Origin: a bacterium
GTDB taxonomy: Bacteria; Hinthialibacterota; Hinthialibacteria; H5-UNCL2
Direction: 5' to 3'
NCBI GenBank assembly: GCA_015075175.1
Contig: JABTUV010000017.1
Location: forward strand, 1 to 64,000
Length of the DNA: 64,000 bases
Shown: in pieces, positions 4,021-63,445 of the stretch
How positions within the stretch are numbered: position 1 is the first letter of the stretch
How the letters are laid out: every line of letters starts with the position of its first letter
The notes under the pieces: generated by a model
Seen by the model: the letters and a program-made list of their open reading frames with translations, nothing else
Told to the model about the DNA's origin: nothing
Databases searched by the model: none
Translations under genes and position numbers: made by a program

Positions 4021-4854
4021 ATGCGCTTCACCAAGATGCACGGCATCGGCAACGACTACATCTACATCAATTGCCTGGAGGAAGCCGTCGCCGACCCGGG
4101 GGCGCTCTCGGTGCGACTCTCCGACCGCCGCTTCGGCGTGGGCGGCGACGGGATCATTCTCATCTGCCGGTCCAGCGTCGCCGACTTTCGCATGCGCATG
4201 TTCAACGCCGACGGCAGCGAAAGCGAAATGTGCGGCAACGGCATCCGCTGCTTCGCCAAGTATGTCTTCGATAAGGGCCTCACGCGCAAAGAGACGATCA
4301 CGGTGGAGACGGGCGCAGGCGTGAAGACGATTGCGATGGAGGTGGTCGGCGGCAAGGTACGGCGCGCGCGCGTGGACATGGGCGAGCCTATCCTCTCGCC
4401 GGCGCAAATCCCCGTCAACCTGCCGGGCGAAGCCATCGTCAACGCCCCCATCCTGGTCGAAGACCGGCGCTTCTTTTTCACCGCCGTATCGATGGGCAAT
4501 CCACACTGCGTCGTGTTCGTGGACGAGATCGACGACGAGCTGGTACTGGGGTATGGACCCAGGTTCGAGCGGCACGCGCTCTTTCCGGCGCGCGTCAATA
4601 CCGAGTTCGCGCGCGTGATTTCTCCCCGCGAAGTGGAGATGCGGGTGTGGGAACGGGGTTCGGGCGAGACTTGGGCGTGCGGCACGGGCGCTTCGGCGGT
4701 GGGCGTGGCCGGCGTCCTGACCGGCCGGACCGAGCGCAGGATCACCGTGCATCTGCGCGGTGGCGACCTGGAGATCGAGTGGGCGGCGGGCAACCACGTC
4801 TTTATGACCGGCCCGGCGGAGACCGTCTTCGAGGGCACGCTCGACTCGGAGTGA
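4021..4854 (+). CDS. dapF: diaminopimelate epimerase
   Basis: Converts LL- to meso-diaminopimelate, the last epimerisation before lysine and peptidoglycan cross-bridge synthesis; cofactor-independent and cytoplasmic. The ATG at 4021 is preceded by GGGAGAAG and gives the canonical N-terminus MRFTKMHGIGND; upstream in-frame starts would add a non-homologous leader. The two catalytic cysteines are visible: Cys71 in EMCGNGIRC and Cys220 in TWACGTGASA. At 277 residues it has the normal family length. It stands alone, divergent from gltX, and is followed by a palindrome-rich gap before the Gfo/Idh/MocA gene. Confidence 0.97.
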   Translation: MRFTKMHGIGNDYIYINCLEEAVADPGALSVRLSDRRFGVGGDGIILICRSSVADFRMRMFNADGSESEMCGNGIRCFAKYVFDKGLTRKETITVETGAGVKTIAMEVVGGKVRRARVDMGEPILSPAQIPVNLPGEAIVNAPILVEDRRFFFTAVSMGNPHCVVFVDEIDDELVLGYGPRFERHALFPARVNTEFARVISPREVEMRVWERGSGETWACGTGASAVGVAGVLTGRTERRITVHLRGGDLEIEWAAGNHVFMTGPAETVFEGTLDSE

Positions 4855-4869
4855 CCTGCGCGCGTCGTT

Positions 4870-4987
4870 GTTCACCCCTCCCTGGGAGAGGTCCGCTCCC
4901 CTCTCCTCAAGGAGAGGTGTAGTCCCCTCTCCCTCATGGGAGAGGTGTAGTCCCCTCTCCCCTGGGGAGAGGGTTAGGGTGAGGGGG
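4870..4987. repeat. CCCTCTCC...GGAGAGG palindromic repeats
   Basis: Three successive versions of a CCCTCTCCC/GGGAGAGG palindrome fill the gap between dapF and the next gene, the last ending in GGGTTAGGGTGAGGGGGG. Related copies lie at 21583-21616 and 28421-28576, and a damaged one at 6411-6455. Similar repeats are common in intergenic regions of many high-GC bacteria. Hairpin formation could end dapF transcripts, although no T-run follows. Confidence 0.75.
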
Positions 4988-5011
4988 GCGTAGTTGCCCG
5001 GAGGTCGTCCG

Positions 5012-6301
5012 ATGCCACATCACATGAGTCGCCGCCGGTTTCTGGGCGCGTCCGCCGCGCTGGCAGCTCCGCTGTTCGTACCAGCGCGGGCGCTGGGCCG
5101 CAACGGCGCCGTCGCCCCCTCCGCGCGCATCGTGATGGGCGCCATCGGCCTCAACGGCATGGGCACGAGCGACCTGCGCTCCTTTCTCGGCTGCCCCGAG
5201 GCCATGGTGGTCGCCGTGTGCGACGTGGACCGCGCCCATCGCCTGCGCGCCCGCCGCCTCGTCGAGGACTTCTATGGCCGGACCGAGACCTCCGGGGCGT
5301 GGCAGGGCTGCCGGGATTACAACGACTTTCGTGAGGTCGTCGCCCGGACCGACTTGGACGCCGTTCTGATCGCTACCCCCGACCACTGGCACGTGCCCAT
5401 CGCGTTGGCTGCGGTCCAGGCGGGCAAGGACGTTTACTGCGAAAAACCCATCAGCCGCACGGTCCGCGAGGGGCGTATTCTTGCCGATGCAGTCGCCCGC
5501 CACGGACGCATCCTGCAAGTCGGCTCGCAGTTGCGCTCCACCCGCAACGTGCGCCACGCCTGCGAACTCGTGCGCAACGGGCGCATCGGACGGCTCCACG
5601 CCATTCACACCTTTCTCCCTTTCGGGCCAACCAGTCCGTTACGGGCGCCGGAACCTGTACCCGAGGGACTCGACTACGAGATGTGGCTGGGACCCGCCCC
5701 CTGGGCGCCCTATACCACCGACCGCTGCCATTACAGCTTCCGCTGGATCAGCGACTACTCCGGCGGCAACCTGACCGACCTCGGCGCCCACGACAACGAC
5801 ATCGCGCAATGGGGCCACGGCTCCGAGTACTCCGGTCCCATCGAGGTCGAGGGAGAGGGCGAGTTTCCGCCCGACGGCCTCTTCAACACCGCCACGCGCT
5901 TCCAGTTGCGCTATCGCTACGCCGACGGCGTGGAGCTCATCTGCTCGACCGCGCGCGTGCAGGGCGTGCGCTTCCAGGGAAGCGAGGGCTGGGTGTACGT
6001 GCGCAGCGCCATCGACGCCGAACCCAAGTCGCTGCTGACTACGGTCATCGGTCCGGGCGAAGTGCATCTCTATGACAGTCCCCATCATCAGCAGAACTTC
6101 CTGGATTGCGTGAAAAGCCGCCGCCAACCGATTGCGCCGGTGGAAGTGGGTCACCGCTCGATCACCATCTGCCACATCGGCAACATCTGCCTGAAGCTGG
6201 GCCGGAAACTGCGATGGGATCCGGAGCGGGAGGAGTTTCCGGGCGACGACGAAGCCAACCGGCTGCTGGCCGCGCCCATGCGCGCCCCCTGGAACGTATA
6301 G
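5012..6301 (+). CDS. Tat-exported Gfo/Idh/MocA-family oxidoreductase
   Basis: NAD(P)-dependent sugar or inositol-type dehydrogenase; the substrate cannot be read from sequence. The ATG at 5012 has GGAGG at 5000-5004 with 7-nt spacing. The N-terminus carries a twin-arginine signal (SRRRFLGASAALAAPLF), so the folded enzyme is probably exported. The Rossmann domain occupies roughly residues 40-165 and contains the family EKP motif (YCEKPISR). The C-terminal domain has the GGNLTDLGAHDND segment, where the histidine and aspartate are catalytic in relatives. The length of 429 residues is typical. Paralogues of this Tat-Gfo type are abundant in planctomycetes, Verrucomicrobia and several candidate phyla. 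A degraded second copy follows at 6411-7500. Confidence 0.92.
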   Translation: MPHHMSRRRFLGASAALAAPLFVPARALGRNGAVAPSARIVMGAIGLNGMGTSDLRSFLGCPEAMVVAVCDVDRAHRLRARRLVEDFYGRTETSGAWQGCRDYNDFREVVARTDLDAVLIATPDHWHVPIALAAVQAGKDVYCEKPISRTVREGRILADAVARHGRILQVGSQLRSTRNVRHACELVRNGRIGRLHAIHTFLPFGPTSPLRAPEPVPEGLDYEMWLGPAPWAPYTTDRCHYSFRWISDYSGGNLTDLGAHDNDIAQWGHGSEYSGPIEVEGEGEFPPDGLFNTATRFQLRYRYADGVELICSTARVQGVRFQGSEGWVYVRSAIDAEPKSLLTTVIGPGEVHLYDSPHHQQNFLDCVKSRRQPIAPVEVGHRSITICHIGNICLKLGRKLRWDPEREEFPGDDEANRLLAAPMRAPWNV

Positions 6302-6305
6302 CGCC

Positions 6306-6380
6306 GGGACAGTCGCCGCTTTTGCGCGCCGGGGCCGCATGCAATGCGGGCAACTACTTCAAAATCGGCGCCTGTTCTTA
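6306..6380. repeat. 75-bp GGGACAGTCGCC palindromic unit
   Basis: Begins GGGACAGTCGCCGCTTTTGC and ends AAAATCGGCGCCTGTTCTT, so the ends are imperfect inverted repeats. Equivalent units occur at 18661-18740, 21629-21706, 21990-22067 and, inside a gene, 27808-27882. It lies immediately behind the stop codon of the oxidoreductase and is included in the degraded duplication, reappearing in damaged form at about 7451-7499. Confidence 0.75.
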
Positions 6381-6410
6381 AGAATGGGCCTTGGCACAGT
6401 CGCGAGAGAA

Positions 6411-18654: not shown

Positions 18655-18945
18655 GCGGAAGGGACAGTCGCCCGTTTCCGGCGGCAACCCGCGTGCAGGA
18701 CGGAAGGCTCCCTTCGGAAACGGGCGCCTGCTCTTAAAAATGGGCCCTGACAGAGTTGCGAAAGAAAGAAAAACCGAGTCCTCGAGTAGCGGCCCGACGA
18801 GCTGTGCCCGTTGATGCCAGATGTCACTTCGGGCCGCGTATCGAGAGGACGGCCCGGACGCGCCCAGTCCGCCGTCGGAGCCGCCTTGGTTTTCATCCTC
18901 TATGGGTGAAGCAGAGCCTTGTGAGGGACTGTCCCTTAAAGGAGG
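18655..18945. repeat. full-length composite palindromic element with GGGACAGTC/GACTGTCCC ends
   Basis: Fills the 308-nt gap between the dehydrogenase and the next gene. It starts GGGACAGTCGCCCG (18661) and ends GGGACTGTCCC (18928), giving inverted terminal sequences. Inside are the 75-bp unit (18661-18740), CCGAGTCCTCGAGTAGCGGC and CCGCGTATCGAGAGGACGGC. Copies in the same or opposite orientation lie at 7536, 21625, 37640, 47195, 54050 and 63046. No protein is encoded. Its right end places a GGAGG just before the next start codon. Confidence 0.75.
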
Positions 18946-20302: not shown

Positions 20303-21583
20303 GTGCGTCCACAAGTTCTTGCTGCTGCCTTTCTGCTTATGCTTTCGGGCGCTCTCGCCGAGGAGGCGCCGATTCGCCGGATATGGGAGGACTTCCAGTC
20401 CCAGCTGCCGCCGCTCACCCCCAGAATCACGCGCGACGAAGTCGTAACGTCCGACGTGGCTCCACGCGTGCGCCTGCGGCGCGTCCACGTAACCTTTGTG
20501 AGTCAATACGTGGAAAACGGCAGCCCGCTCACGCACCATGCCGTCATTTTCGCGCCGGAAAGGATCGCGCCCGAGAACCGCGGCAAGGTCGTCATCGTGG
20601 GCAGCATCGCGGGGCCGTTCCAGAAATCGTTCGAAATCAACTACGGTCAACCCATGGCCGCGCTGCTGGGCTATCCGACCATGATCCTGCCCAATCCGGG
20701 CGAGACGCCGGACCGGCCCGACCGCGAATGGAGCATCCGCTACCTCTTGGACCTGCCGCGCGAGCAACGCAGGGTGACCGACCATTACTTTTTCCGTCTG
20801 GCCATACCCTACCTCCGCGCCATGGACGTGTTCGCGGACGTGCTCAAGCTGCCTCGCGGGGACATCCGCGCGGTCGTCGGCGGGCACAGCAAGCGCGCGC
20901 CCTCCGCCTACACCGCGGCGGCCATCGATCCCGCGCGCGTGGCCGGCGTGGTCTTCATGGGCATGGAAGGCCGCTGGAGCCGCCCGACCGGCGGCCCTTT
21001 CGACGCCGTTTCGCCGCTGTTCAACTCGCGGTTTGTCAAGTGCCCCACCCTCTATCTGGGCGCGACCAACGAAGACGGTTACACCATGTTCAACGTGACG
21101 CACAACCAGTCGCTCCTGGAACAACCCTGGACCGTCTCCATGGTCCCCAACTATCGCCACGCCGCCGAGTCGCCCCAGCAGTTTCTCATCTGGCGGATGT
21201 GGGCGGCGCACTGTCTGTCGGGACGCCCCGTGGCGCGCGTCTGGGACGCCACCCACGAGGAAACGCCGGAAGGCACGCACTTCCGCGCCCGCATCGTGGA
21301 CCCCAACGTCATCGTGCAGGTACGCGCCTGGTACGCCTACTGCGACGACGTGCCGCTGTGGCGCGACCTCGTCTGGTATCCCGTCCTGATGCATCCCAAA
21401 GAAGGCGACCTGTGGGAAGGCTACGAGCGCGGCAGGACGCCGGACGCCTGGATGGTGGAAGTCGAGGACGTGGGCGGCGGGGTGCACGGCTACGTCACCA
21501 GTTGCCCGCAGAACATCACCGGCAAAGAGGCCCGTGAGCGCACCAGCCGCGGCAGCCGCAGCCGCCACTGGGAGGAGAAGTAG
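20303..21583 (+). CDS. secreted alpha/beta hydrolase, PhoPQ-activated-protein-like (paralogue 2)
   Basis: A 426-residue exported protein, paralogue of the gene 29 nt upstream. The GTG at 20303 is chosen because GGAGGT lies 6 nt before it and it yields a clean Sec signal peptide (VLAAAFLLMLSGALA). Key motifs are VVIVGSIAGPF, GGHSKRAPSAY (Ser196), LYLGATNEDGY and MVPNYRHAAE. Two tryptophan-rich stretches near the C-terminus are shared with the first copy. The conserved active-site serine in both argues that both are enzymes, perhaps with different specificities. It is probably co-transcribed with paralogue 1. Confidence 0.75.
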   Translation: MRPQVLAAAFLLMLSGALAEEAPIRRIWEDFQSQLPPLTPRITRDEVVTSDVAPRVRLRRVHVTFVSQYVENGSPLTHHAVIFAPERIAPENRGKVVIVGSIAGPFQKSFEINYGQPMAALLGYPTMILPNPGETPDRPDREWSIRYLLDLPREQRRVTDHYFFRLAIPYLRAMDVFADVLKLPRGDIRAVVGGHSKRAPSAYTAAAIDPARVAGVVFMGMEGRWSRPTGGPFDAVSPLFNSRFVKCPTLYLGATNEDGYTMFNVTHNQSLLEQPWTVSMVPNYRHAAESPQQFLIWRMWAAHCLSGRPVARVWDATHEETPEGTHFRARIVDPNVIVQVRAWYAYCDDVPLWRDLVWYPVLMHPKEGDLWEGYERGRTPDAWMVEVEDVGGGVHGYVTSCPQNITGKEARERTSRGSRSRHWEEK

Positions 21584-22070
21584 TCCCCTCTCCCTGCGGG
21601 AGAGGGTAAGGGTGAGGGGCGGCGTGGGACAGTCACCCATTTCCGCCGCCGGCCCTCGACAAAACCGACATGCAACTTCGGAAATGGGCGCCTGCTCTCA
21701 AAAATGGGCCTTGGCAGGTTCGCAAGAGAAAGAAAAACCGAGTCCTCGAGTCGCGGCCCGACGAGCCAGGTGCTACGATGCGAGATGTAACTACGGGCCG
21801 CGTATCGAGAGGACGCTTTCGATGCGGCCCGCCTGCCTTCGGAGCGGCCTCCCCGCGTCCAGGCTGTCCTCTCGATGAGAGGCGCGAAGGCACAGCTCGC
21901 ATCTCAAGCGGACTATCCGGCGCGCCGCTACTCGAGGACTCGGTTTTTCTTTCTTTCTTTCTTTCGCGACTCTGGAAGCGTCCATTCTCAAGAGCAGGCG
22001 CCGATTTTGAAGCGCCTGCTCCCACCTGTCGCGGGCTGAGCGCGCAAAATCGGTGACTGTCCCCCGGTCG
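21583..22070. repeat. largest composite palindromic element
   Basis: A CCCTCTCC-family palindrome (21583-21616) is followed by an approximately 440-bp element starting GTGGGACAGTCACCC (21626) and ending GTGACTGTCCCCC (22067). It has two 75-bp units in inverted orientation at the ends (21629-21706 and 21990-22067). In between are CCGAGTCCTCGAGTCGCGGC and its inverse CGCTACTCGAGGACTCGG, enclosing CGTATCGAGAGGACG and CGTCCTCTCGAT-like arms. A CTTT microsatellite (21951-21966) lies on the right arm. The 535-nt gap holds no gene. Confidence 0.75.
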
Positions 22071-22118
22071 GGCCGCGCGGCTTGAAATGCCGGCGCCTCT
22101 CCACTATCGTCCCAGAGC

Positions 22119-25582: not shown

Positions 25583-25603
25583 ACGATTACGACGCGTAAT
25601 CGT
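25583..25603. terminator. hairpin between convergent genes
   Basis: ACGATTACG-ACG-CGTAATCGT is a perfect 9-bp stem with a 3-nt loop, located 30 nt after glgC and overlapping the last codons and stop of the convergent ligase-like gene. No T-run follows, so termination is an inference. It is also part of a CGTAATCG hexamer-type repeat. Confidence 0.4.
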
Positions 25604-26792
25604 AATCGCACGATGAGCGGGAGCCCAGGGCCAGCAGCGCAAACAGCGCCAGGGGAAGATTGCCGGCCGTCAGCATCACATCGAAGCATCCGTGGACGAG
25701 AAACGCCAGGACGCCCGCGCAGAGAAAGACCCGCGGGTCGTCGCGCGCGGGCCGGAGGTGACGCAACCAACCTCCTATCATGCGGAGAAACGCGAAGAGT
25801 CCCGCCGCCCCGAAGGCCAGCAGCAGGTGCATGTAGAGATTGTGGGCGTGCGTGTAGCGCTCCGCCAGCATGGGATGGGAGAAGCCCACGCGTGTGCCGG
25901 CTAACTCGTGGCCGAAGGCATCGCCCCATCCCTGCCCGAACACCAGCCGCTCGGGATGGGCGGCGAGCATCTCGACGCTTCCCTTCCACAGGTTGACGCG
26001 CGACAGCGGCAGCGGATCCCGCAGTTCGGCGCGGATTTCGCCGAAGCGCACAGCCAGCGTCGTGTGAAACGCCGCCAGCAGTCCCGCCATGACGAAAAGC
26101 GCGGCCAGCGCGACCCGCCGCACGGCTCCCCGCCCGGCCCATCCCATAAACACAATTTCCGCGACCGCTCCCACCATCGCCGCGCGCGAGTAGGTGCGAA
26201 AGAGGAGATAAAGCGAGACCAGCGCCAGCGCGTAAAGACCGTAACGCGGCCATCGCTTGACGTGCCTGGACAGGTAAAGCAGTACGGGCAGCGCCAAGAG
26301 CAAATAGCCGGCGAGAAGATTGAAATGACCGAAGGTCCCGCGAATGCGCTCGACTTCGCCCCCGAGGTCCTGCCGCAATGCGACCGCGCAGAGATAAAGA
26401 TGGCCAAGAAGAAACGCGCCCCACAGAACCTCCACCTGCCGCCGTCCCACCCGCAGATTACTGAGATAAAGGTAAAACCCGAACGCAAACAGCAGATACA
26501 ACCAGGTCTTCAGCGCACTGTAGGGAAACGTCGAACCGACGGAAGAGACCAATGCGAGGGCGAGAAACATGCCGCCGGAGAAGCTCAGCGGCGCTTGGAC
26601 GGGGACGCGGCCGCTCCGCAGCCACGCCGCTGCCCAACCCGACAGGAGCAGGTAGGGGATGCTCTTGACGGCGTGGCCGCCGAAGGAGCCGACCGGCAGC
26701 TCAATCCGTCCCGCGCCCAGGGTAAAGAGCACGAGCGCCAAGAGCGCCAGCGCGACCGCCTCCAACGCGCGCGCGAGTGCCTGTCGGTTCAT
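25587..26792 (-). CDS. O-antigen ligase/polymerase-like membrane protein (Wzy_C)
   Basis: A 401-residue protein with about ten to twelve hydrophobic helices. The long loop contains LFRTYSRAAMVGAV, typical of the Wzy_C/WaaL family, followed by the region SRVNLWKGSVEMLAAHP and the HAHNLYMHLL motif with conserved histidines. Such proteins ligate or polymerise lipid-linked O-antigen or related glycans on the periplasmic face. The ATG at 26792 overlaps the stop of the upstream gene (ATGA), so translation is coupled to the propeller-bearing membrane protein. The C-terminal residues CDYDYAS come from a hexamer repeat. A second ligase-like gene lies at 30347. Confidence 0.82.
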   Translation of the reverse strand: MNRQALARALEAVALALLALVLFTLGAGRIELPVGSFGGHAVKSIPYLLLSGWAAAWLRSGRVPVQAPLSFSGGMFLALALVSSVGSTFPYSALKTWLYLLFAFGFYLYLSNLRVGRRQVEVLWGAFLLGHLYLCAVALRQDLGGEVERIRGTFGHFNLLAGYLLLALPVLLYLSRHVKRWPRYGLYALALVSLYLLFRTYSRAAMVGAVAEIVFMGWAGRGAVRRVALAALFVMAGLLAAFHTTLAVRFGEIRAELRDPLPLSRVNLWKGSVEMLAAHPERLVFGQGWGDAFGHELAGTRVGFSHPMLAERYTHAHNLYMHLLLAFGAAGLFAFLRMIGGWLRHLRPARDDPRVFLCAGVLAFLVHGCFDVMLTAGNLPLALFALLALGSRSSCDYDYAS

Positions 26793-28354
26793 GGGGCGGG
26801 CTCCGGGTTTGGGTGCTTGAGATACCGCGACAGATCAAACGAAAAAACCTCTCCGTATCCGTTGAGGATCAGGACGCGCATGATTTCCGGTATCACAACG
26901 AAGTCCACGCAATCGCCGCGCCGCACGCGCACGGAGAGATCGCCGTAAGCGATGGGAAAATTAGGGTCAGCGCCTATTTTTTCAGGCGAAACCGTCGACA
27001 GGCGTGAGTTTCTACTGAAAAGACAGGCGCTGACCCCAATTTTCCCCACGCCGTGCAGGCCGCCCCAGGCGTCCAGCCAGACCAGATCGTCCTCCCAGGC
27101 GCGCAAGGCGACCGCGTCGTCGTCGGGTGCTGGAAATGCGTGGCGCTGGAAGCGCAGCGTCCTCTCCGCGTGGGGCGAGGCGTGGAGAACGCCGTGCCGG
27201 TCCAATACCACGAACGTCACGGCGGGCGGGTCGGATCCCTCGACCAAGCCGCGCGCCTGGTCGTCGAAGGGAAAGAGCGGCGGCGCCACTTGGGTGAAGG
27301 TCGTCCCCGCATCGATGCGGTACACGGCGCCGCCCCCTGACAAGACATACGGTTGCGGATGACCGTGTGAATCAAACGACAGGTCGACGGCGCGGCCCAG
27401 TCCGTACTTGACTTCGCCGGTGCAAGCGTAGGGGGAAGCCGCGCCGAAGTAGCGCATCTCGCCGCGCGCAAAGAGGCAGAGGAAGCCCGCGCCGTCGGGC
27501 GTCGCGCGCACGCGGCAGGCGGGCCCCAGCGCGCCCGAAAAGACGTGCAACCGCCGTCCGCTCCCGTTGATGAGCAGGAGTTCGCCGTGCTCGCGCAGGA
27601 CCGCCAACTCGTCGCGCGCCCGACTGTAGTCGAGGCTCACGGCGCGGTTCTCAGGACGGATTTTCAAGTCTTCGCCCAGGAGCGCGAACTGCGCCAGCAC
27701 GTGGTGCTTCAACAGGTCGTCCGCCAGGCAGGCTTCACGCAACACGTCGGCCCCGGCGTCGCGCAGCGGCGAGAGGCGTTGCGCAGCCTCCATCCAGGGA
27801 AGGGACAGGCGCCCATCTTGAAGCAAGAGCTCGGACCCGTCGCGGGCCGGGCGCGCAAAATCGGCGACTGTCCCCAGGGGGCGCGTGGGATGCCGCAATT
27901 GCACGCGCGCCAGAAGGTCGCCCTGGCCTGCCGCATAGTAGAAAGCTAGGGCCGAGATCGACTGCGCCGCCACAGCAAGAAGGATGACGCCGGACAAAGC
28001 CCATCGCGGCAACGCCACGACCGGCCCGCGACAAGACATGAACGCAAGAAGAAAAACGGCCGTCTGGACCGTCCCAACCAGCGGCGCGGAGTGGGAAACG
28101 TATTGAACCACGAGTTCGCCCGCCGCCCAGGCCGCCCCGCACGAGAGCAGGACGCGCGTCCATGCGCCCTTTAGAATACTTAAGGGTGGCACCCGGAGTG
28201 TGAGGAGGAAGAGGGCCAGCGTGCCGGCGACGGCGGCCTGCCGAAAGCTGCCGAGGGCCATGATATAGAGCAACAGCAGCCACGCGGACGCCACTGGATG
28301 CGGCCCGCCTCGCAAGCGGGGGAAAAGACGCTTGCGATCTTCATTCACGTTCAT
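26789..28354 (-). CDS. membrane protein with C-terminal propeller-like domain, carrying two in-frame repeat insertions
   Basis: A 521-residue protein. Residues 20-150 contain about five hydrophobic helices, and residues 200-520 form a soluble region of recurring short motifs (VLDRHGVLHA, WLDAWGGLHG, ILNGYGEVFSF) like blades of a beta-propeller. The C-terminal half resembles that of the protein at 40584-42930. Two palindromic repeats from different families sit in frame. 27808-27882 encodes a segment beginning VADFARPARDGSELL; 26953-27047 encodes one beginning KIGVSACLFSRNSRL. The ATG at 28354 is preferred over an upstream TTG. Translationally coupled to the ligase-like gene, it may help assemble a surface polysaccharide, but no function is established. 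Confidence 0.65.
   Translation of the reverse strand: MNVNEDRKRLFPRLRGGPHPVASAWLLLLYIMALGSFRQAAVAGTLALFLLTLRVPPLSILKGAWTRVLLSCGAAWAAGELVVQYVSHSAPLVGTVQTAVFLLAFMSCRGPVVALPRWALSGVILLAVAAQSISALAFYYAAGQGDLLARVQLRHPTRPLGTVADFARPARDGSELLLQDGRLSLPWMEAAQRLSPLRDAGADVLREACLADDLLKHHVLAQFALLGEDLKIRPENRAVSLDYSRARDELAVLREHGELLLINGSGRRLHVFSGALGPACRVRATPDGAGFLCLFARGEMRYFGAASPYACTGEVKYGLGRAVDLSFDSHGHPQPYVLSGGGAVYRIDAGTTFTQVAPPLFPFDDQARGLVEGSDPPAVTFVVLDRHGVLHASPHAERTLRFQRHAFPAPDDDAVALRAWEDDLVWLDAWGGLHGVGKIGVSACLFSRNSRLSTVSPEKIGADPNFPIAYGDLSVRVRRGDCVDFVVIPEIMRVLILNGYGEVFSFDLSRYLKHPNPEPAP
26953..27047. repeat. in-frame AAAATTGGGGTCAGCGCC palindromic repeat
   Basis: GAAAATTAGGGTCAGCGCC on the left and GGCGCTGACCCCAATTTTC on the right form long inverted ends around a 50-bp centre. 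The unit lies inside the CDS at 26789-28354 and does not interrupt it. Related sequences in other genomes often accompany REP-associated Y1 transposases (established for that class in general; no transposase is present here). Confidence 0.75.
27808..27882. repeat. in-frame 75-bp GGGACAG...CTGTCCC repeat inside a CDS
   Basis: The unit begins GGGACAGGCGCCCATCTTGA and ends AATCGGCGACTGTCCCC. It is the same family as 6306-6380 and 21990-22067, which are intergenic. Here it lies inside the gene at 26789-28354 and is read through in frame. Confidence 0.8.
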
Positions 28355-28420: not shown

Positions 28421-28576
28421 GGCGCTCCGCGCCGACCTCTCCCCGAGGGAGAGGTGGAGAATGCGCTCCGCGCCGACCTCTCCCCGAGGGAGAGGTGGAG
28501 AATGCGCTCCGCGCCGACTTCTCCCTTAAGAGAGGTTGGATCCCCTCTCCCTCGGGGAGAGGGTTAGGGTGAGGGG
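28421..28576. repeat. 41-nt tandem repeat ending in CCCTCTCC palindrome
   Basis: Unit GCGCTCCGCGCCGACCTCTC... of 41 nt occurs at 28422-28462 and 28463-28503, with a third divergent copy from 28504. The array ends in CCCTCTCCCTCGGGGAGAGG and GGGTTAGGGTGAGGGGG. Intergenic, between divergent genes. Confidence 0.8.
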
Positions 28577-28629
28577 GCGTGGCGAAGACCGCCCTACCCC
28601 CGCCTGCCGCGGTATGCTAAAACCAGCCC

Positions 28630-47194: not shown

Positions 47195-47447
47195 GGAACG
47201 CGAAAACCCGAGCCGTGTCGTCCAGTAGGCCCCGGTCACGCATGAACCCGAGCCGTGTCCTCCAGTAGGCGCCCGTCATACATGAACCCGAGCCGTGTCC
47301 TCCGGTAGGCCCCGGTCACGCATGAACCCGAGCCGTGTCCTCGAGTAGGCCCGGAGTCTGCGGAGGGCCGTATCGAGAGGCACGGCGGCGTAACGCCGGC
47401 CAGCCCTCGCGCACTATCCCCCCCGCCCCCCTTGTTAAGGGGGGAGT
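47195..47447. repeat. 40-nt tandem array plus composite-element centre and CCCCCTTGTTAAGG palindrome
   Basis: Four 40-nt units (47201-47240, 47241-47280, 47281-47320, 47321-47360) share AACCCGAGCCGTGTCCTC. They are followed by GGCCGTATCGAGAGGCACGG and a CCCCCTTGTTAAGGGGGGAG palindrome (47417-47447). The array has no spacers that differ from each other as in CRISPR. It lies in the gap between convergent bshA and the STAS gene. Confidence 0.85.
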
Positions 47448-63045: not shown

Positions 63046-63445
63046 TCGTGGGACAGTCGCTCACGGCGCTTCGTCTCGCCTATGGAAGATGAAAACCCAG
63101 GCGGCTCCCAAGGCGGCCTCGGCGAATCGAAGCCGTCCTCTCGATACGCGGCCCGAAGTCGCATTTCACCTCGATGCGGGCCATCCGTCGGGCCGCTACT
63201 CGAGGACTCGGTTTCTCTTTCTTTCGGAACCCCTGCCAAGTAGCTTCTTCCAGAGCAAGATGCAGAAATGTAAGCCGCGTCCTCGAGCAGGCCCCGTGAT
63301 GCAGAAAGTGTAAGCCGCGTCCTCGAGTAGGCCCCGTGATGCAGAAAGTGTAAGCCGCGTCCTCGAGTAGGCCGTCTGCGGCCGTATCGAGAGGCACGGC
63401 GGCGTGTAGGCGTCAAGGCCGCGTCCATGCCGTCCTCTCGATACC
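63046..63445. repeat. composite palindromic element with 40-nt tandem array
   Basis: Starts GTGGGACAGTCGCTCACG (63047) and continues as an inverted copy of 18837-18937. It then shows CCGTCCTCTCGATACGCGGC and GGGCCGCTACTCGAGGACTC, followed by three 40-nt units (63262-63300, 63301-63340, 63341-63380) sharing TGTAAGCCGCGTCCTCGAG. It ends with GGCCGTATCGAGAGGCACGG and CCGTCCTCTCGATAC. It fills the 430-nt gap between convergent genes; nothing else is seen there. Confidence 0.85.

Follow-up and report, generated by a model that had tools for sequence, protein, structure and literature searches.

Two palindromic repeats, probably of mobile origin, read in frame within one gene of an uncultured Hinthialibacterota bacterium

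Introduction

A gene on the minus strand of contig JABTUV010000017.1, within the 64,000-nucleotide stretch analysed here (the window), carries two inverted repeats, elements A and B. Judged by sequence, both segments are very probably inserted mobile repeats that are translated within the protein. Palindromes inside coding genes have already been published, as Rickettsia palindromic elements (RPEs) and as REP dimers; the present case is a well-supported new example, of the GGGGWSAS class. With it, both an uncultured, G+C-rich lineage with a 5-Mb genome and the GGGGWSAS elements join the known cases of in-frame "coding palindromes"; a transposase gene accompanies the elements, and the core enzyme GltB provides a clean instance. 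The genes concerned form a natural experiment on the acceptance of 24–31-residue inserts by proteins, and they indicate that "extragenic" repeats are not strictly extragenic.

The Host Gene and Its Two Elements

The host gene extends from its ATG at 28354 to its TGA at 26791–26789 (26789–28354, minus strand) and encodes 521 aa. The protein has a hydrophobic N-terminal third followed by about six propeller-like repeats. The hydrophobic third makes a membrane protein plausible, and the spacing of the repeats, 41–46 residues, makes a propeller plausible. To that extent the label "membrane-propeller gene" used in the original prediction is plausible; a Pfam search of the 521-aa protein gave no match, and a single-sequence AlphaFold2 model was unusable (pLDDT 36.6).

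The reading frame is open through both elements, with high hexamer coding scores in one common frame on each flank of A and of B. Both palindromes are thus in frame in one gene, as had been predicted. The score of the ORF as a whole is 232; the longest plus-strand ORFs opposite reach 30 and 61. The host stop overlaps the start of the downstream gene by 4 bp, in an ATGA at 26792–26789; that gene (25587–26792, minus strand) is O-antigen-ligase-like (Pfam Wzy_C).

Element A is a 93-bp inverted repeat of the REPIN/TIR type (GGGGTCAG), in frame at 26954–27046. Its 22-nt arms are GGGAAAATTAGGGTCAGCGCCT (arm 1, 26954–26975, plus strand) and the inverted copy AGGCGCTGACCCCAATTTTCCC (arm 2, 27025–27046, minus strand). 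In the host gene the element encodes GKIGVSACLFSRNSRLSTVSPEKIGADPNFP, residues 437–467. When single-stranded, its DNA forms one long hairpin of −34 kcal/mol, with z = −10.6 relative to shuffles. Element B, an in-frame inverted repeat of the GGGGACAG type at 27802–27875, runs from GGGACAG (27802) to CTGTCCC (27874) plus one further C, making 74 bp. The prediction had given it about the right length but had placed it, at 27808–27882, about 6 bp off. It encodes about GTVADFARPARDGSELLLQDGRLSL, residues 161–185, which follow the membrane part and precede the repeats; its fold has z = −2.7. The motif GGGACAGNCNCC occurs 8 times in the window, where 0.31 would be expected.

Dispersed Families in the Genome

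Copies were sought in the draft genome of this one species (4.98 Mb, 49 contigs, 84% complete). Element A has 78 significant matches, many of which are the two strands of one palindrome. Its half-sites, with up to 3 mismatches, number 153 (none for the reversed control), and its exact full palindromes number 58 (control 0), most measuring 70–74 bp core to core. B-type palindromes number 45 (control 1), one of the 45 being a tRNA gene. Thus the genome-wide search that the prediction had proposed found both repeats dispersed, A with 58 exact full copies and B with about 45. Looser patterns allowing 1–2 mismatches returned mostly chance matches and were set aside.

The sister copy nearest to the B of the host gene, 83% identical, is at 21995–22064, between an ORF ending at 21583 and one opening at 22086. 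It belongs to an intergenic stretch of ~440 bp (21626–22064) with B-type half-sites at both ends and TACTCGAGGACTCGG and CTCTCGATGAG repeats between them. This stretch looks nested or composite, and similar pieces are found near 18661–18935 and 6306–6410. Two other kinds of repeat were seen in the window: intergenic repeats of the CTCTCCCTCGGGGAGAGGGTTAGGGTGAGGG type at 28422–28577 and 4902–4987, and a further family of tandem 40-bp repeats (AACCCGAGCCGTGTCCTCCAGTAGGC...) at 47205–47350 and 63267–63372, 16 kb apart.

Spacers of A mostly differ from copy to copy, except within some groups, for instance one on contig 34. Of the 172 A half-sites read, about three quarters have GGAAAATTR outside the core. 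Flanking sequences on the outer side of the core match those on the inner side at 6.06 of 9 positions, compared with 5.01 in shuffled flanks (largest shuffle, 5.38), as if each arm might itself be a small hairpin. The arms of A (GGGGTCAGCGCCTAATTTTCC) and of B (GGGGACAGTCGCCGATTTTCC) align with a score reached by none of 5000 shuffles. The two repeats had been described as unrelated; by their arms, families A and B are related.

When the copies of A on the same strand as an upstream ORF are considered, the TAG in GGAAAATTAG stops that ORF in 14 of 23 cases. Frames through A are seldom free of stops (72 of 408), whereas those through B often are (139 of the 204 tested). Given its few stop-free frames, the intragenic copies of A that are observed are what selection has left over.

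The figure for B, a G+C content of 66% that makes long open frames common, and the lack of any known close orthologue are what one would cite for a different origin, as follows: that the two segments are ancestral protein merely resembling the repeats, or that the ORF is open by chance. Yet dozens of copies elsewhere match both segments, and the genome-wide copies largely refute this view. The coding score of the ORF, which is low inside A, the ATGA overlap with the next gene and the homologue described below, which lacks the A segment, also speak against it. We regard it as extremely improbable and retain insertion of both repeats as the preferred reading.

An Empty Site in a Distant Homologue

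No orthologue of the host gene was found at the usual cut-off, 84,980 genomes included. A distant homologue was recovered only after both inserts had been removed and the cut-off made lax, and was then checked by shuffles. It is a 521-codon ORF present in two genomes of the same class (G008 and G012), with a similar build, that is, a hydrophobic N-terminal part and LDRFGGxH-like repeats. Its alignment with the host protein scores 91, against 40 ± 5.6 for shuffles, and hhalign gives a probability of 72% with E = 3.5e-5.

Successive repeats of the host protein are spaced by 41, 44, 46 and 43 residues and then by 70, the last interval being the one that holds element A. In the homologue the spacings are 39–49, and the last repeat measures 46 rather than 70. 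Subtracting the 31 residues of element A from the last host spacing leaves 39. Hence the alignment called for in the original prediction has, for A, yielded a relative without the A segment in the last repeat. A search for relatives carrying the peptide without the repeat at the DNA level, the result named there as counter-evidence, found none. At the site of B the homologue gives no alignment, so that the case for B as an insertion in this gene rests on its DNA family.

Other Genes Carrying the Elements

Of the 68 full copies of element A that were examined, four continue the reading frame of the gene in which they lie and one disrupts its gene. The arms of A are stop-free in one frame, which encodes GKLGSAPNFP ... 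KLGADPNFP, and three of the four intragenic copies use that same frame. By one fixed boundary rule the four in-frame copies measure 91, 91, 91 and 93 bp; therefore, the copies do not all add, net, one and the same multiple of three. A stronger proposal, that element A has been selected for tolerance in proteins and that a transposase-driven repeat serves as a recurrent source of linkers in this lineage, seems to us very doubtful.

The clean case is gltB (contig 49), where element A is in frame as LL-TGKLGSAPNFAASPSQTGNPSAKLGADPNFA-LRC. The linker has 31 residues here and mostly 8–10 in 13 aligned orthologues; that of Bacillus GltB (7mfm) is approximately as short. Compared with relatives, the protein has gained about 21 residues net rather than 30, which implies that the old linker was partly lost or the site otherwise changed. 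A faint likeness of the gltB spacer to the relatives' linker had raised the idea that the spacer is the old linker, caught between two separately inserted arms. The idea was dropped on account of the permease copy described next, whose spacer matches those of intergenic copies.

That copy lies in frame in a metal ABC-3 permease (L083, about 4600–6000, contig 34) fused to a C-terminal Fe_dep_repr_C domain (DtxR-like, iron-dependent-repressor-type), element A separating permease and domain. In 10 relatives, whose loop varies, the element peptide is missing. A 1093-codon ORF that has no Pfam match likewise reads through element A in frame. Element B is in frame in a PMT-like membrane-protein gene, the homologues of which are without that segment, and probably also in a 260-codon ORF. 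The prediction that the spread of repeats adds protein sequence in this genome is thus upheld, both by the homologue of the host gene and by the relatives of other element-bearing genes that do without the element's segment.

Some candidates were left uncounted. Many copies that appeared in frame by flank scores proved to be two separate neighbour genes with the element between them. The ORFs over element A in L059, L076 and L089 look like shadow frames of opposite-strand genes.

It might be argued that the inserts inactivate the host protein and that the gene is a pseudogene in which decay has not yet begun to show. The host gene is poorly conserved, and the gene-breaking copy of A puts a flavin amine-oxidase-like gene (L097) out of frame. 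We consider this unlikely, as 521 codons run without a stop or frameshift, two insertions are tolerated, the overlap with the next gene is kept and a core enzyme gene, gltB, has the same element in frame.

Conversely, the inserts might have been co-opted, for example as a regulatory mRNA hairpin acting on the downstream ligase gene or as a useful linker peptide. The very stable A hairpin lies about 160 nt before the downstream gene, and many element copies lie at gene ends, both of which are in keeping with such a role. On the other hand, the inserts occur in unrelated proteins and at unrelated sites. Since none of the 192 other genomes searched contains the exact A palindrome, conservation of the insert across species cannot be shown. 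Co-option therefore strikes us as decidedly unlikely, and we favor inserts that are tolerated rather than useful.

A Candidate Transposase

There are two Y1 transposase genes in the genome. One of them, encoding 221 aa (C46:237765–238430; L095 3766–4431, contig 46), has a complete copy of element A on each side, with arms of 26–27 nt that are 96–100% complementary, and its TAG stop lies inside a flanking element A. It is a PF01797 gene with an NHVHF motif. The best and only NCBIfam match of the protein is NF047646 (REP-associated tyrosine transposase), at 70.1 bits for a cut-off of 80. Pfam gives only Y1_Tnp and no C-terminal HTH; for that reason subclass 2.1 is not claimed for it. The nearest transposase elsewhere, the one relative found in 84,980 genomes, is 59% identical and belongs to Candidatus Desantisbacteria. 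Just upstream of it is GGGGGAAAACCGGGGACAGCGCCCGTTTTTC, the same layout with somewhat different letters.

We infer from this arrangement that A is mobilized by the 221-aa enzyme. No transposase adjoining any copy of element B was found in the genome, and B may be moved by the same enzyme as A. The second gene, for a REP-type Y1 transposase of 219 aa (L102 2616–3275, contig 5), has neither A nor B beside it; the strand opposite bears ORFs in which tandem units encode SSNFSLGRRKL-like repeats.

Proposed Origin of the Inserts

The explanation that we favor is as follows. A and B would be related families of short hairpins, each a REPIN-like doublet built from a terminal inverted repeat of the GGGGWSAS type. 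A transposase of RAYT/TIRYT type, an IS200-like enzyme acting on single strands, would copy them now or have done so in the past. Most copies would land between genes or at gene ends, where A may often give the preceding gene its stop codon. A minority would have landed inside genes. The intragenic copies of A that survive would be those with one of the few stop-free frames, a compatible length and a site in a loop or linker, and the DNA of such survivors would now be translated as an insert of 24–31 residues. In the host gene, A would thus occupy a loop of the last propeller-like repeat, and B the segment joining the membrane part to the repeats.

Comparison with Known Systems

One close parallel is with the TIRs and their transposases (TIRYTs). 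In the relevant sections of Di Nocera et al. 2013 (PMC3733652), TIRYTs are transposases flanked by inverted repeats with the GGGGWSAS motif; they correspond to subclass 2.1 in PMC6006769, to which a C-terminal HTH belongs, a domain that most TIRYTs have. The window copies of A (GGGGTCAG) and B (GGGGACAG) both contain the GGGGWSAS motif, which is present in the TIRs of many TIRYTs. As in that system, a Y1 HUH transposase is flanked by GGGGWSAS repeats that are also dispersed as inverted doublets. The systems differ in that the 221-aa transposase lacks a Pfam C-terminal HTH and falls short of the NCBIfam cut-off (70 vs 80). They also differ in that the intragenic copies given in those sections of PMC3733652 are of GTAG and CGTC repeats, with none of TIRs.

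Element A likewise resembles the REPINs and RAYTs of Bertels and Rainey 2011 (PMC3116915): a pair of short repeats in inverted orientation with a variable spacer, which forms a hairpin and is dispersed, with one linked transposase gene. In P. fluorescens, however, only 14 of 1067 REP 16-mers overlap genes and REPINs are nearly all extragenic (PMC3116915), whereas here about 7 full elements are in frame inside ORFs. The GTAG tag of REPs is absent from the element consensus.

In Opitutus terrae, Thauera and Xanthomonas, REP dimers within genes, as treated in the corresponding part of PMC3733652, contribute 20–30 residues to conserved genes, and the ends of GTAG repeats often supply the TAG stop of neighbour genes. 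The present elements are like these dimers in being palindromes that code inside conserved genes and in ending neighbour genes with an element TAG. The dimers, in contrast, are GTAG-type repeats, in uvrA, recB, dnaE2 and so on.

Finally, RPEs (Ogata 2000, 2002, via PMC10969869 and PMC3733652) are in-frame palindromes in unrelated genes, where they encode extra residues. The passages on RPEs in these two sources describe them only from Rickettsia and kin, the first families being about 150 bp long. The elements described here also lie in frame in unrelated coding genes, and so this side of the parallel drawn in the original prediction holds. Unlike an RPE, A is of another sequence class, is linked to a transposase of the RAYT/TIRYT kind and has that transposase gene between two of its copies. 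We suggest the likeness as an analogy, not as membership.
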